DNA of 64,000 nt from Bacteroidota bacterium (GTDB taxonomy: Bacteria > Bacteroidota > Bacteroidia > Bacteroidales > JACABE01): contig JACABE010000011.1 in NCBI GenBank assembly GCA_013377005.1, forward strand, positions 1-64,000. The letters run 5' to 3'. Under the pieces are notes generated by a model. That model worked only from the letters and a program-made list of their open reading frames with translations, was not told where the DNA came from and ran no database searches. The translations under genes and the position numbers were made by a program. Below, one piece after another: positions 46,168 through 56,809 of this stretch; the first letter of the stretch is position 1; every line of letters starts with the position of its first letter.

Positions 46168-47370
46168 ATGGAAGAATTAACTTTGTTATACATCGGTGAT
46201 GATGATAAAATAATAAAAGCGCTCGATACTAACGATTTATTTAAATTGGTACATTTCAACAATGGCTTACAAGCGTTAAACTGGCTTACAAGTTTTAAAT
46301 TTAATACTTTTGATCAAACTCAAAAAAATGAGATTATTCATGTTGATTTAATTGTATGTGAAACCAATCTTCCTGGAATTGATGGATTTGGATTATTTCA
46401 GCTTTTCAAAAAACGCTGTATTGATTTCTTAACCCCTTTTATCTTAATTACTTCAAACTTCAGGGATACATTGCGAATAGAAGCTTTTAAGATGGGTATT
46501 GATGGTTATATGTCTAAACCTATTGATTTTCAGGTATTGTACAATCGCGCTCTTTATCTAATAAACGAAAAACAAAAATTAAGATTAGTTTTACAAAGTA
46601 ATCAGAAGAAAGAAGAATTTGTTCAGGAATATAAAACAAAATTCATAAAAAGAGTATTTGATATTAGTATAGCTTCAGTTGCTTTATTATTTGCTTCTCC
46701 TATCTTTCTTATTACTGCTATTGCTTTAAAGTTAGAATCAAAAGGTCCTGTATTTTATGCTTCAAAAAGAGTTGGGTCGAATTTTAAAATATTTAATTTT
46801 TATAAGTTTCGGTCAATGTATCCTGATGCAGATAAAAGATTAAAAGAAGTAGAACATCTGAATCAATATAAGGATGAAGATGTAGAACTTTTTTGTTCAG
46901 AATGTGCAAAACTTTCCGATGGAAAGTTTTGTAGTCCTGTGGTTTATTTAGATAAAGATCGTATTTGCGAGAGAATGGCAATAAAACGTAAAAAAGCGAA
47001 AAAAGCATTTTTAAAAATTCCTAATGATCCTAGAATTACAAAAGTTGGTAATTTTATTCGAAATACTAGTATAGATGAGCTTCCTCAATTAATAAATGTA
47101 CTAAAAGGTGATATGTCGATTGTTGGAAATCGGCCTTTACCAGTTAATGAAGCAAATGCAATTACAACTTCAATTTGGGCGAGGCGTTTTAAAGCATCTG
47201 CAGGGCTTACTGGTTTATGGCAGGTTGAGCTTAGAGGTCAGGGGGGAATAATGTCTGAAGAAGAAAGGTTTAAACTTGACAATAAATATGCTGAAAACAA
47301 CTCTTTTTTTGGTGATATAAAACTAATCCTCAGAACCTTTCCAGCTCTTTTTCAAAAAGAAAAAGTTTAA
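46168..47370 (+). CDS. Pseudo-receiver fused to initiating sugar-phosphate transferase
   Basis: A 400-residue fusion. Residues 1-125 are receiver-like: Asp11/12, E65 exactly where the phospho-acceptor Asp belongs (LIVCETNLPGIDGF), T95 and K117 (MSKPID). Residues ~158-398 are a bacterial sugar transferase (WcaJ/PglC type). It has KFIKRVFDISIASVALLFAS with one membrane helix, RVGSNFKIFNFYKFRSMYPD, PNDPRITKVGNFIRNTSIDE, LPQLINVLKGDMSIVGNRPL and AGLTGLWQV. It moves a sugar-1-phosphate to undecaprenyl phosphate, the first step of the polysaccharide unit. An insert at ~235-275 carries C243, C246, C255 and C267, a possible zinc site. The Glu may mimic the phosphorylated state. Confidence 0.93.
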   Translation: MEELTLLYIGDDDKIIKALDTNDLFKLVHFNNGLQALNWLTSFKFNTFDQTQKNEIIHVDLIVCETNLPGIDGFGLFQLFKKRCIDFLTPFILITSNFRDTLRIEAFKMGIDGYMSKPIDFQVLYNRALYLINEKQKLRLVLQSNQKKEEFVQEYKTKFIKRVFDISIASVALLFASPIFLITAIALKLESKGPVFYASKRVGSNFKIFNFYKFRSMYPDADKRLKEVEHLNQYKDEDVELFCSECAKLSDGKFCSPVVYLDKDRICERMAIKRKKAKKAFLKIPNDPRITKVGNFIRNTSIDELPQLINVLKGDMSIVGNRPLPVNEANAITTSIWARRFKASAGLTGLWQVELRGQGGIMSEEERFKLDNKYAENNSFFGDIKLILRTFPALFQKEKV

Positions 47371-47392: not shown

Positions 47393-48133
47393 ATGAATTT
47401 TTTTAAAAATATTTTAGGTTTTATACTGATTATTATAGTGTTAAAGGTGTCTGCTCAATCAGACACTAATCTCTTAAAAAACATTAATGAATATAATCCT
47501 TCTGTTCATAGTATTTCATTAATATTACCACCTTTACAAGTATTGTTTGATTCTGCCATTGAAAAGTCATCTTTGATAAAATTCTGGGAGTCAGGTATTG
47601 ATGCTCAACAATATAAAATTCAAAGTGCTAGAATAAATTGGATGCGAAGTGTTAATCTTGAGGGTGATTTTCGGTATGGATCAATCAACAATGTTTTTGT
47701 AGGACCAACGTCCACTTTGATAACTACAAGTGATGCTACTCGTTGGGGAACAGGGATTTCATTAAAATTACCAATCTACGAATTCTTCAATAAAAAAAAT
47801 GCCGTTGGAGTCGCTGTTAAAGAAAAAGAACAAGCAAGTTTCCAGCGGGAAGCAGCAATTACTGAGTTAAAAAAAGCTGTTATTTCTCAATATTATGAAT
47901 TGCTTTTCAGAGAGCAATCTTTGAAAATAAGAAATTCGAATATGCAAAGTACAGCCCTTCAACTTCAAATGACTGAACTTGATTTTAAGAATGGTAAGAT
48001 TGCAATTTCAGAACTAGTGAGGTTGAGTCAACAACATGCTGCTAACCAATTTGAATTTGAAAAAGAAAAACGTGAGTTTTTAGCAGCATTACTAATTCTT
48101 GAAGAAATTATTGGATTTAAGTTGATTAAATGA
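47393..48133 (+). CDS. Short TolC-like outer-membrane protein
   Basis: A TolC-family-like protein only 246 residues long, about half of a normal TolC protomer. A signal peptide sits at residues 1-21 (NILGFILIIIVLKVSAQ). The following WESGIDAQQYKIQSARINWM helix, beta strands (NLEGDFRYGSINNVF, GTGISLKLPIYEFF) and long helices (TELKKAVISQYYELLFREQS, TELDFKNGKIAISELVRLSQ) reproduce one helix-strand-strand-helix repeat. It may assemble as a larger multimer or be a diverged export component. It lies 22 bases after the sugar transferase and seven bases before the chain-length gene, so a role in export is likely. Confidence 0.8.
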   Translation: MNFFKNILGFILIIIVLKVSAQSDTNLLKNINEYNPSVHSISLILPPLQVLFDSAIEKSSLIKFWESGIDAQQYKIQSARINWMRSVNLEGDFRYGSINNVFVGPTSTLITTSDATRWGTGISLKLPIYEFFNKKNAVGVAVKEKEQASFQREAAITELKKAVISQYYELLFREQSLKIRNSNMQSTALQLQMTELDFKNGKIAISELVRLSQQHAANQFEFEKEKREFLAALLILEEIIGFKLIK

Positions 48134-50299: not shown

Positions 50300-51619
50300 A
50301 TGGAGGTAAAAAAAGTTTTAAAGAGTAATAATATACTTTCATTAGCTGGTAACTTTTCTGCTGCAATTTTTGGTTTCCTGAGTTTTATGTTGCTCACTAG
50401 AATTACTACGACTGATACATTTGGGAAATGGGTTCTTTTTATTACTTCATCAACATTTGTCGAAATGTTCCGATTTGGAATTACTCGCGTTGCCTTGATT
50501 AAATATTTGAGTGGTGCACCTGAAGAAGAAAGAATTATTTTAATCGGAAGCAATTGGACTATTGGTATATTTCTTACTATTACAATTTCTCTTTTACTTG
50601 TTATTATTCGTTTTCTTTTTAAATCATCTATCGACCAATCTGGTTTCGTTTATTTTTTTCAATGGTATCCGTTATTAGCTTTTATTAATTTGCCTTTTAA
50701 CAATGCATTATCTGTTCTTCAGGCAGATATGAAGTTTTTTAAAATATTACTTATTCGATTAGTTAATACTGGTGTTTTTGTTATATTTTTATTTTTTGAT
50801 TTGCTTTATTTTAAATGGGGTGTTGAAAAAATAGTGACAGTTTATCTTTTAGTTAACTTATTTACATCCTTAATGACCATTTTTTTAGGATGGGATAATA
50901 TTAAATTGGCAAAATACTATGATATCAATGTTATAAAAAAAATACTGCATTATGGCAAATTTTCATTAGGAACATTAATTGGCACTAACTTGCTTAAAAG
51001 TGCTGATACATTTATTATTGGAATGAGCCCTGTATTAGGAACTACTGCTGTTGCTCTTTTTAGTGTTCCCATTAAAATGACTGAAATTCTCGAAGTTCCA
51101 TTGCGTAGTTTTGTTGCGACTTATTTCCCTCGAATGTCAAAAGCTCATAGAAATGGGAATACAAATGAACTCAGGCGCTTATTTTATTCCTATTCAGGAG
51201 TAACTTCATTATTATTTATACCTTTTTTATTAGTTTGTTTTTTTATGGCTAATCAGGTAATTCTTGTTTTAGGAGGTAAAGAATATCTTTCTTCCCTTCC
51301 TGTATTTTATGTTTTCTGTATTTACGGATTATTTTTACCTATCGACCGTTTTACTGGAGTAGCTCTTGATAGTGTGAATAAACCTGATAGAAATTTCTAT
51401 AAAGTTCTTGCAATGGCTTTGGTTAATATTATAGGTGATGCTATTGCTGTATTTTACTTTAATAGTATTTTAGGAGTTGCTATTGTTACAATTGTTATGA
51501 CTATTGTTGGTGTATTTGTTGGGTTATATCAGTTAAAAAAAGAATTTCCATTTAAAATACGAATGGTTTTTATTTCTGGGTTTCAAACAATTTTGAGTAG
51601 GATAAAGAAAGCTATATAG
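50300..51619 (+). CDS. Wzx-type polysaccharide flippase
   Basis: A MOP-superfamily oligosaccharide-lipid translocase (439 residues). About 12 to 14 membrane helices run through the protein, starting ILSLAGNFSAAIFGFLSFML and LLTRITTTDTFGKWVLFITS, the conserved Wzx opening with a Gly/Arg-rich cytoplasmic turn. LIGTNLLKSADTFIIGMSPV (second half, D-x-F/I-x-I-G) and STYFPRMSKAHRNG-like turns (here ATYFPRMSKAHRNG) are typical. It moves undecaprenyl-linked repeat units to the periplasmic face. The start lies two bases after the co-polymerase stop, and the polymerase gene follows after seven bases. Confidence 0.93.
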   Translation: MEVKKVLKSNNILSLAGNFSAAIFGFLSFMLLTRITTTDTFGKWVLFITSSTFVEMFRFGITRVALIKYLSGAPEEERIILIGSNWTIGIFLTITISLLLVIIRFLFKSSIDQSGFVYFFQWYPLLAFINLPFNNALSVLQADMKFFKILLIRLVNTGVFVIFLFFDLLYFKWGVEKIVTVYLLVNLFTSLMTIFLGWDNIKLAKYYDINVIKKILHYGKFSLGTLIGTNLLKSADTFIIGMSPVLGTTAVALFSVPIKMTEILEVPLRSFVATYFPRMSKAHRNGNTNELRRLFYSYSGVTSLLFIPFLLVCFFMANQVILVLGGKEYLSSLPVFYVFCIYGLFLPIDRFTGVALDSVNKPDRNFYKVLAMALVNIIGDAIAVFYFNSILGVAIVTIVMTIVGVFVGLYQLKKEFPFKIRMVFISGFQTILSRIKKAI

Positions 51620-51626
51620 CAAAAGT

Positions 51627-53093
51627 ATGGGGAATTTCGAAAAATTTTCTGGAGCAAATCAGTTACTAAAAATGCCTTATGTTTTACTAACTGGTATAGC
51701 AATGGCATTAATCGGAATTGTTATTGCAAAATATGAGATATTAGCTGCGGCAATCTTTATTGTTCTTCCTTTTGTAATTTATTATTTTATTAAATTATTC
51801 AGAAATCCTTCCATTGGATTAACTACTACTATAATTTTAAATTTTTTTGTACTTGGAGCATCTAGATATATTGACGCACCTTTTGGTCTTTTAATTGATG
51901 GTTTTCTTGTTTTAACAATCATTGCATTATTATTCAAAAGTTATAGTATCTATAAACCTGATTATTCTTTATTGAAAAATGATGTAATGTATTTTGCTGT
52001 TCTTTGGTATTTATTCCTTGTTTTGGAATTACTTAATCCTGAAGTTGTCAGTAGATCTGCCTGGTTTTTCTTTATGCGTGGTATGGGATTATATATGCTA
52101 TTGACTGTATTTTTAGCATTAATGGTATATAATACGCCTAAACATTTAGAGAAGTTTTTGTTTTTATGGGCCATTCTTTCTTTTCTAGGAATTTTAAAAG
52201 GCATAGGTCAGAAAGTTTTTGGTCTTGACCATTGGGAACAACATTGGCTATCTACAGAAGGATTTGTAACACATTTTGTATTCGGTAAACTAAGAATCTT
52301 TTCATTTTACTCTGATGCTGGACAGTTTGGTGCATCTCAAGCACATACAGGAGTTGTTTTCTTAATTATTGGTTTGAATACTAAAAAAAGTTTGTTAAAA
52401 TATTTTTATTTAACTGTTGCATTGTTGGGATTTTATGGAATGTCAATAGCTGGGACAAGAGGTGCAATGGCTGTTCCTCTTGCTGGATTTTTCTTATATA
52501 TTATTTTGCAGAAAAATTTTAGATTAATAATTATTGGATTTGTCCTGTTAATAAGTATTGTTATCTTTTTTAAATTCACAACGATTGGTCAGGGAAATGA
52601 TCAAATTAGGAGAATGAGAAGTGCATTTGATACTGAAGATAATTCACTAAATGTTCGGCTTGATAATCAAAAAAAACTATCTAAGTATCTAGCATCAAGG
52701 CCTTTTGGTGGAGGTGTTGGAAATGCTGGAGCTAAAGCGCTTCGTTTTGCTCCAAATTCATTTTTAGCAAATGTCCCTACTGACAGCTGGTTCGTTCATG
52801 TTTGGGCTGAAACAGGAATTGTAGGTTTATATTTTCATTTTTTTATCATTTTCTTTATTCTTGGAAAAGGAAGTTATATAGTAATGTTTAAAGTAAAAGA
52901 TAAAGATCTTAAAATAAAATTGATTGCTTTACTTAGTGGTTATGTTGGGATTATTGCAGCTAGTTATGGAAATGAAGTCATAAGTGGGTTACCTACTGCT
53001 TTTCTCGTTTATCCATCAATAGTCTTTGTTTTTCTTTATAAGCATCTTGAAAAACAAAAAAATGAATCTAAAGTAAACTTACTTCAAACTTAA
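51627..53093 (+). CDS. O-antigen ligase/polymerase family protein (Wzy-like)
   Basis: A polytopic membrane protein (488 residues, about 12 helices) of the Wzy_C/O-antigen-ligase family, presumably linking repeat units into polymer in the periplasm. The large loop between late helices contains SDAGQFGASQAHTGVVF and a second block GGGVGNAGAKALRFAPNSFL followed by PTDSWFVHVWAETGIVGLYF, the conserved C-terminal signature. It could be a ligase instead of a polymerase; the position between flippase and transferases favours polymerase. It is the last gene before a 138-base gap with an internal promoter. Confidence 0.88.
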   Translation: MGNFEKFSGANQLLKMPYVLLTGIAMALIGIVIAKYEILAAAIFIVLPFVIYYFIKLFRNPSIGLTTTIILNFFVLGASRYIDAPFGLLIDGFLVLTIIALLFKSYSIYKPDYSLLKNDVMYFAVLWYLFLVLELLNPEVVSRSAWFFFMRGMGLYMLLTVFLALMVYNTPKHLEKFLFLWAILSFLGILKGIGQKVFGLDHWEQHWLSTEGFVTHFVFGKLRIFSFYSDAGQFGASQAHTGVVFLIIGLNTKKSLLKYFYLTVALLGFYGMSIAGTRGAMAVPLAGFFLYIILQKNFRLIIIGFVLLISIVIFFKFTTIGQGNDQIRRMRSAFDTEDNSLNVRLDNQKKLSKYLASRPFGGGVGNAGAKALRFAPNSFLANVPTDSWFVHVWAETGIVGLYFHFFIIFFILGKGSYIVMFKVKDKDLKIKLIALLSGYVGIIAASYGNEVISGLPTAFLVYPSIVFVFLYKHLEKQKNESKVNLLQT

Positions 53094-54979: not shown

Positions 54980-56809
54980 ATGAACAGTTTTATTGGAAAT
55001 TTTAGTAATGAAGTATTTGAATTTAAATCTTCGAAAGAATTTGAAAGTTACAAACAATTAAGTGCTAATTTTTTTGCAAAAGGTGATTTTACCGATTACA
55101 AAATAAATGAGAAATATATTATTTTGTTTGGTAATATTTATAATATTGCCAATGTAGCAAATGGAGAAGGAATTAATGCTAATTACTCAAATGCACAGAT
55201 TTTTCTGGAATTATTTATGAAAAATCAATTTTTAATTAAAAAACTCGATGGAGAGTTTACTGCAATTATTTTCTCAGAAAATGGATGCAATATTATTCGA
55301 GATCGCCATGGTGCATCCTTACAGGTATATTATTCAAATAAAGTTTTTTGTTCTAATATTTTTGATTTTAAAAAAGTAAAAGATTTCTCAATCGAATTGA
55401 ATCAAAGTTCATTGGCTACTTATTTGGCATACGGTTATATTCCCTCTCCTCAAACTGCATTAAAAGGAGTATCAAAGTTAACTGCAGGATTTGCATTAAA
55501 TTGGCAAAAAGGGAATACGAAAATATCACCTATGTATAGTTTTGAAGAATTTAAAGCTGATATTAATCCGAATATTCGTTTAAAAGATGCTGCTGTTGAG
55601 TTTGAGCAACTGCATCAGAAAGCAATAAAAAGCAGGATAGAGGGAAAAAAGAGTATAGGTTTATTCTTAAGTGGAGGCTATGATTCAGGCGGAAATATTC
55701 ATGCTTTACGTCAGATATATAGCGGAGAAGTATCTTCATTTTCTATTGGTTTTAAAAATAATCCTTGGTCAGAACTACCTTTAGCTCAAAAGCTTGCAGA
55801 TGTGTATTCAACCAAACATAATGATTATGAAATAGACGGAAGTGAAATTACTTTCCTTCCGGATATTGTTGCAGAAATAGGAGATCCATTTCAAGAAAGC
55901 GGATTAATGATTAATTATTTGGTTAATAAATTAGTTGCTAACGATAGACCTGAAATAATATTAGGTGGAGATGGTAATGATCAACATTTTGGAGTAGCTA
56001 TGCGTGAATTGGCAATGTTCTATAAAATTTCAGGTATGGGATTAATGCCAGCGCTTAGATTTACAACATCTGTATTGCAATCAAACATATTTGACAACGA
56101 TAATTTTTTATTTAAGCTTCGTTTTCAGGGACATAAAATTTCACATATCCTTGAAAATGATCGTTTTGGTTTTAATAATCAACAACAAAAAGTTTTATTA
56201 AAAAATTTCACACCATATAAAGCTCCTGCATCACCAATTCAATCTTGTTCTGATTTTGACCAATTATGTCTTATTAAACAATTTTACATTGACTTAGCCC
56301 AAATTGTAAATGAAGTTATTTTGTTTAAAGGATCTAAAATGGCTGCACATTTCGATAATCAGCTTTCTTTTCCTTATATGTCAACAGATATTTACAATTT
56401 TTTGAAAACAATTCCAAGAACAATTAAAACAAAAGGTGATCCTGATGCTATATCTAAGGGTAAAGGTGCTGCAAAATACCTGCATAAATATTACTTAAAA
56501 CCACATCTTCCTTCTGAAATTACAGACAGAAAAAAACAAGGCGGTTTCGCTCCTTTACCTGTATTTTTCAATGATCCAGATCAAAGGGAGAAAATATTCA
56601 GCTATATTGTTGATTCAAAATTTGTAGCAGAATATGCAAATAAAAATACAGTTAATAAAATACTTAATGATTATAGTACACAAGCAGATAAAGAACCTTA
56701 TTGGTTCTGGAATCGGCAAACAAAAGCTACTCAGGTATGGAATTTACTTGTAATTTGTATTTGGTGGGATACTATGAAAAGTGAAAATAATAAAATTAAT
56801 TTTTTATAA
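54980..56809 (+). CDS. Asparagine-synthetase-like protein lacking the N-terminal Cys
   Basis: A class II amidotransferase/asparagine synthetase homologue (609 residues). The N-terminal Ntn-like domain (~1-175, LDGEFTAIIFSENGCNIIRD and RHGASLQVYY) starts MNSFIGNF, so the catalytic Cys2 for glutamine hydrolysis is absent. The C-terminal synthetase domain has the PP-loop SGGYDS (231-236), FSIGFKNNPWSELPLAQKLA, and GGDGNDQHFG for the E/D-rich ATP region. It may amidate a sugar acid using free ammonia or a partner glutaminase, or act as a lasso-type adenylating enzyme. Its position in the polysaccharide locus favours modification of the glycan. Confidence 0.9.
   Translation: MNSFIGNFSNEVFEFKSSKEFESYKQLSANFFAKGDFTDYKINEKYIILFGNIYNIANVANGEGINANYSNAQIFLELFMKNQFLIKKLDGEFTAIIFSENGCNIIRDRHGASLQVYYSNKVFCSNIFDFKKVKDFSIELNQSSLATYLAYGYIPSPQTALKGVSKLTAGFALNWQKGNTKISPMYSFEEFKADINPNIRLKDAAVEFEQLHQKAIKSRIEGKKSIGLFLSGGYDSGGNIHALRQIYSGEVSSFSIGFKNNPWSELPLAQKLADVYSTKHNDYEIDGSEITFLPDIVAEIGDPFQESGLMINYLVNKLVANDRPEIILGGDGNDQHFGVAMRELAMFYKISGMGLMPALRFTTSVLQSNIFDNDNFLFKLRFQGHKISHILENDRFGFNNQQQKVLLKNFTPYKAPASPIQSCSDFDQLCLIKQFYIDLAQIVNEVILFKGSKMAAHFDNQLSFPYMSTDIYNFLKTIPRTIKTKGDPDAISKGKGAAKYLHKYYLKPHLPSEITDRKKQGGFAPLPVFFNDPDQREKIFSYIVDSKFVAEYANKNTVNKILNDYSTQADKEPYWFWNRQTKATQVWNLLVICIWWDTMKSENNKINFL

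Follow-up and report, generated by a model that had tools for sequence, protein, structure and literature searches.

How could a receiver domain that has lost its phospho-acceptor aspartate take part in the control of the enzyme that initiates polysaccharide synthesis? This question is raised by two neighboring genes of the window (the whole 64,000-nucleotide stretch of DNA that was analyzed), which encode a free response regulator and, just downstream, an initiating sugar transferase (PGT) carrying a receiver-like domain at its N-terminus. The original prediction, made from the DNA letters alone, was that a glutamate standing in for the acceptor aspartate either locks this fused receiver on, or that the fused receiver pairs with the free regulator. 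To answer the question, we used domain searches, structure modeling, a residue table of the relatives, gene neighborhoods and a co-divergence analysis.

The fusion is a 400-amino-acid protein translated from an ATG start (ORF 46168-47370, + strand). In the Pfam analysis, PF00072 matched amino acids 26-127 (41.8 bits; cut-off 30.2) and PF02397 (Bac_transf) matched amino acids 161-395 with 200.8 bits. As had been predicted, the N-terminal domain and the upstream regulator could be aligned (141 columns, 26% identity, E = 1e-14), with E65 of the fusion facing Asp54 of the regulator. In the AF2 model of the fusion, built on 71 relatives (mean pLDDT 88.6), the receiver part displays the complete (beta-alpha)5 order. 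Because beta-3 (residues 61-65) ends at residue 65 in this model, E65 occupies the position of the phospho-acceptor, which agrees with the alignment and with the original assignment; in a single-chain model of the regulator plus the transferase, beta-3 of the regulator likewise closes at its acceptor position. Downstream of the receiver, the model comprises the long alpha-5 helix, a re-entrant/membrane helix (residues 159-190) and the PGT domain. In comparisons with the PDB, the receiver part matched the CheY-like receiver 3crn, and the transferase part matched PglC (8e37; 181 residues, 2.8 A). The coordinates of these features and of their neighbors are given in Table 1.

Table 1. Features of the regulator-transferase locus, with coordinates numbered from the first nucleotide of the window.
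Feature	Coordinates	Strand	Evidence or remark
Free single-domain response regulator, 133 aa	45754..46155	+	PF00072, 102.7 bits
Pseudo-receiver domain of the fusion, aa 1-140	46168..46587	+	PF00072; AF2 topology; VIA Z 16.5 (3crn)
D11, sole remaining acid-pocket Asp	46198..46200	+	Residue table
E65 (GAA) replacing the phospho-acceptor Asp, closes beta-3	46360..46362	+	Codon; AF2; alignment
K117, counterpart of the conserved receiver Lys	46516..46518	+	Retained by only 11 of the 104 relatives
Long alpha-5 helix, aa 121-149, receiver-transferase joint; includes R127	46528..46614	+	AF2
Small monotopic PGT domain, PglC-like, aa 158-400	46639..47367	+	PF02397; VIA Z 20.6 (8e37)
PGT insert with C243, C246, C255 and C267 (codons 46894-46968)	46873..47001	+	All-or-none in relatives
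Catalytic dyad Asp303-Glu304	47074..47079	+	No variation among 71 aligned relatives
Short OEP/TolC-like outer-membrane protein, next gene	47393..48133	+	PF02321; same place in 60 relatives
Wzz/chain-length-like protein, 718 aa	48141..50297	+	TIGR03007, 55.7 bits, below its cut-off; same place in 60 relatives
Wzx-type flippase	50300..51619	+	PF13440, PF01943
Wzy-type polymerase/ligase	51627..53093	+	PF04932

The acid pocket and the lysine had been said to remain in the fused domain. This holds for K117 (as well as for T95) and for D11, but the first pocket aspartate is replaced by a glycine (Gly10). The domain thus keeps a recognizable receiver fold, with the Asp65->Glu substitution and one pocket Asp changed to Gly, and the predicted fusion of a pseudo-receiver of dead chemistry to an initiating transferase was borne out. 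The transferase belongs to the small class: its N-terminus consists of the receiver fold and one membrane helix, and the four-helix TM bundle of the large class is absent. From its domains and its modeled fold, the protein is a receiver-fold domain joined to a small monotopic PGT, predicted to perform polyprenyl-phosphate sugar-1-phosphate transfer.

The upstream regulator possesses an intact catalytic set (D10 and D11, D54, S84, K106), PF00072 being the only domain found in it by Pfam, with no output domain. The two proteins are encoded by separate ORFs, whose frames are in phase with stop codons in between, and 12 bases separate the stop of the regulator from the ATG of the fusion. The genes follow one another in the order regulator, receiver-PGT, OEP/TolC-like protein, Wzz-like protein, Wzx flippase, Wzy polymerase and then glycosyltransferases, i.e. 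the locus is a Wzx/Wzy-type polysaccharide locus. The C-terminal part of the Wzz-like protein (LKIAFISTRAEEGKHTIASLF) resembles by eye the ATPase domain of BY-kinases, with a degenerate Walker A motif; it gave no Pfam match and is perhaps a pseudokinase. The polysaccharide cluster also comprises a gene (54980-56809) encoding an asparagine-synthase-like protein (PF00733).

To follow the two genes through the phylum, relatives were taken from the order, from named genomes and from 395 Bacteroidota genomes sampled evenly, 45 of which had a match at E <= 1e-60. The aligned family comprises 104 distinct proteins of at least 330 amino acids, the most diverged of which have N-termini that are weakly receiver-like. 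Enough sequence upstream of the fusion was available for 103 loci. In 102 of them, a single-domain regulator encoded on the same strand directly precedes the fusion, at a distance of −23 to 240 bases (median 13), and 94 of these 102 regulators have the pocket acids, the Asp, the Ser/Thr and the Lys all intact. In the one exception (L018, from the same record as L032), two transposase-type ORFs, identified by eye, lie between the two genes; they look IS66-like, and make of this locus a natural separation of the regulator-transferase pair. Such a regulator adjoins none of the 21 control PGTs, which come from the window's own genome, relatives and other phyla and for which 0.4-5 kb of upstream sequence were seen (Fisher p 7e-23, computed on related rows that are not independent). 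Furthermore, the regulator-PGT adjacency holds even where the other neighboring genes differ. The pairing with the regulator lying upstream, which had been put forward from this single locus, is a property of nearly the whole family.

The residue flagged by the original prediction behaves otherwise. The receiver-transferase architecture turned out to be widespread, but residue 65, although most often a glutamate, is one in 56 of the 104 proteins, the others having D (15), Q (10), Y (6), N (6) or another residue (11). On the tree of the PGT domain, the E/not-E state changed at least 13 times, and the column ranks 23rd of 140 for conservation. E65 persists over most of the clade of the window protein (Bacteroidales, Prevotella, Bacteroides and some Flavobacteriia); in Flavobacterium the residue is mostly D, in Pedobacter, Mucilaginibacter and Sediminibacterium it is Q, Y or N, and a relative from the same genus as the window (L010) has an aspartate. 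As to the other catalytic residues, the receiver Lys is kept in 11 of the 104 fused domains, an acid occurs at position 10 in six and at position 11 in seven, and the full set occurs in none. Since residue 65 varies, the lysine is mostly lost and no fused domain has the full set, this domain is by its residues a family-wide pseudo-receiver, E65 being a frequent state of a dead domain. A variable residue 65 together with a neighbor that is not conserved had been named as the outcome that would speak against the original prediction; the residue does vary, but the neighbor is conserved. The main finding is this pairing, conserved across the family, between a live regulator and a dead receiver borne by the initiating enzyme, in which the flagged residue is a minor element.

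The pseudo-receiver is itself diverged, with a mean identity of 19% versus 42% among the regulators and 57% among the PGTs. What the dead domain conserves better is a putative binding face. Residue 113 is acidic in 94 of the 104 relatives and residue 127 is R or K in 92 of them, with four and five changes on the tree, respectively, versus 13 for E65. In the regulator, the corresponding residues are D102 and R116; the window protein is an exception at residue 113, where it has a Gly. Knowing that the OmpR/PhoB regulators dimerize through their alpha4-beta5-alpha5 face (PMC2586830), it is worth noting that the pseudo-receiver conserves the Asp and Arg of this face, from which binding to the regulator is predicted. 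We modeled the complex with AF2 as a read-through single chain of regulator and transferase, using 23 paired rows. The model reached a pTM of 0.41 with no confident arrangement, and it differs from PleD by 15 A rmsd over both receivers (VIA). The best PDB matches of the free regulator are PleD chains.

Together, these data support the proposal that, because the dead receiver on the PGT almost always lies behind a live receiver, a two-component signal probably switches the initiating enzyme directly. More precisely we propose, with a probability of about 0.6, that phosphorylation lets the free regulator dock on the pseudo-receiver and so gate the PGT, whereby a two-gene module controls the first step of the Wzx/Wzy pathway. 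A histidine kinase or a phosphorelay would phosphorylate Asp54 of the regulator, which would then bind the fused receiver domain, most likely via the alpha4-beta5-alpha5 faces, and the long alpha-5 helix would pass the change to the PGT domain, altering its activity, its dimer state or its placement in the membrane. The pseudo-receiver would operate as a docking surface that is not phosphorylatable in the usual way, and E65 would be a residue tolerated or favored in a dead pocket, rather than the switch.

Three other explanations must be weighed against this docking proposal. The first of the two alternatives in the original prediction holds that Glu65 mimics an aspartyl-phosphate, making the fused receiver permanently active and the enzyme constitutively on. 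It draws on the prevalence of E at residue 65, on the ability of Glu to activate ordinary response regulators (PMC12632262), on the retention of both T95 and K117 in the window protein, and on the higher frequency of K117 with E65 (10/56) than without it (1/48). However, independent pairs, of which there are five only, give the E65-K117 association no support, and for a link of E65 to T/S95 such pairs were likewise too few. A phosphate-mimicking Glu is thought to require the receiver Lys; 46 of the 56 E65 proteins are devoid of it, and a constitutive phosphate-mimic therefore cannot be the family rule. Furthermore, the relatives with D, Q, N, Y or S at residue 65 have the same architecture and the same partner, and among receivers lacking the Asp in general, Glu is what most often takes its place; in some published cases its mimicry was found to be irrelevant or was disproved (PMC12632262). 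Weakened as it is by the residue table and the loss of the lysine, we regard mimicry as quite improbable, and "locked on" is not supported as the general mechanism; the window protein itself, with its T95 and K117, might still be a constitutive mimic.

Alternatively, the regulator might target the PGT domain directly, as proposed for EpsW and EpsZ, the pseudo-receiver being a dimerization or stability module. Consistent with this view, EpsZ has no receiver domain (PMC12802240), and a single-domain regulator gene immediately precedes six small PGTs that lack a fused receiver (L073, L091, L092, L129, L130 and L134), an arrangement closer to EpsW-EpsZ. These six cases indicate that the pseudo-receiver is not strictly needed, and therefore that the regulator may also act on the PGT domain. 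As a further possibility, the regulator would merely share the operon and have another target, a polysaccharide protein or a kinase, leaving the pseudo-receiver to read something else; the lack of a complex in the single-chain model is in line with it. Both explanations are confronted with the co-divergence of the proteins, measured from their distances (which are not independent) in the 52 loci having all five proteins. The regulator tracks the pseudo-receiver, with a partial correlation of 0.54 (0.35-0.67 for 5-95% of half-samples), and hardly the PGT (0.15) once the pseudo-receiver is controlled for, which makes action on the PGT domain alone unlikely. The value of 0.29 for the Wzz-like protein leaves some room for another target (it is −0.06 for the OEP-like protein), but the strongest co-divergence is with the pseudo-receiver and the adjacency to the PGT persists despite differing neighbors, so that a target elsewhere is in our opinion still less likely than direct action on the PGT.

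Returning to the docking proposal, candidates for its upstream signal were found in other genomes. In several Pedobacter/Mucilaginibacter loci and in a Chitinophagaceae MAG, the regulator is adjoined by a divergent hybrid kinase organized as HisKA-HATPase-REC-terminal HPt, and these hybrid kinases are candidate module kinases in Sphingobacteriales and Chitinophagales. Those lying upstream of the regulator in L042, L046, L050 and L051 have PAS domains in most cases, and three of them show a weak to moderate HNOBA similarity; no H-NOX was found in the window's own genome. In another locus, a stand-alone HPt gene (L040:4662-4997) immediately precedes the regulator, which suggests a phosphorelay. 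The window's own genome gave no HPt match and does not point to such a relay; the kinase would therefore have to act directly here. No partner kinase of the module was identified in this genome.

The PGT domain has another feature, unmentioned in the original prediction, namely the insert with four cysteines. All four occur in 45 of the 104 relatives and none in the other 59, never a part of them, with at least five changes on the tree. The insert also occurs in receiver-less PGTs of the wider subfamily (L073, L081, L133, L135, L137 and L138) and is absent from 21 other PGTs. The cysteine pattern makes it a probable metal site, for Zn or Fe-S; a literature search on zinc or cysteine PGTs returned no relevant description.

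The original prediction knew of no described system of this kind, and our literature searches for a receiver plus a sugar transferase in Bacteroidetes found nothing. In Myxococcus xanthus, however, the phosphorylated single-domain regulator EpsW activates the PGT EpsZ (PMC12802240, mBio 2025), a functional precedent for the direct control of a PGT by such a regulator, and its authors suggest that regulator control of PGTs may be wider. Furthermore, the domain combination of the window, a receiver joined to a small PGT, had already been reported by a sequence survey (O'Toole et al. 2021, PNAS, via PMC12802240). Insofar as the citing text summarizes this survey, dead chemistry, an obligate partner and co-divergence were not among the features that it reported. 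The window module also differs from EpsW-EpsZ in its parts. EpsZ is a large monotopic PGT with a TM bundle, without a beta-hairpin and without a receiver, whereas the window enzyme is small, PglC-like and fused to a pseudo-receiver; the window regulator scored 73.7 bits against the EpsW model NF041866 (cut-off 200), which places it outside the EpsW family. Activation was shown for EpsW-EpsZ, and is assumed by analogy for the window module.

Direct two-component control of polysaccharide initiation has so far been shown only for EpsW-EpsZ (PMC12802240). If our proposal is true, such control extends to a whole phylum, including the gut Bacteroides and Prevotella. A 2025 review called the control of pseudo-receivers a mystery, and raised receiver/pseudo-receiver heterodimers as a hypothesis (PMC12632262). 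The module described here is conserved in more than 100 genomes, with partners that are known, adjacent and small, and an enzyme that can be assayed as the output.

Similarly to other aspartate-less receivers (PMC12632262, PMC4395418), the window domain has the receiver fold, has lost catalytic residues and carries Glu, the residue that most often replaces the Asp in them. The best-studied bacterial pseudo-receivers are mostly transcription regulators according to the review, whereas this one is borne by a membrane transferase with an obligate neighboring regulator. The proposed pair resembles the BldM-WhiI receiver heterodimer of Streptomyces, one member of which is atypical (PMC12632262); unlike the window pair, these proteins are transcription factors, and BldM is not known to be phosphorylated (PMC12632262). 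There is also a likeness with PleD, which comprises a receiver, a pseudo-receiver and a diguanylate cyclase (PMC12632262): a live receiver controls an enzyme through a pseudo-receiver there, and would do so here. PleD carries its three domains, one of them a cyclase, on a single chain, whereas the live receiver of the window module is encoded by a gene of its own. By analogy, we tentatively suggest a phylum-wide "split PleD", in which a heterodimer of the phosphorylated free receiver and the pseudo-receiver would gate the initiating transferase, and with it the first committed step in making surface polysaccharide, post-translationally in gut Bacteroides and Prevotella, soil Pedobacter and marine Flavobacteriia.
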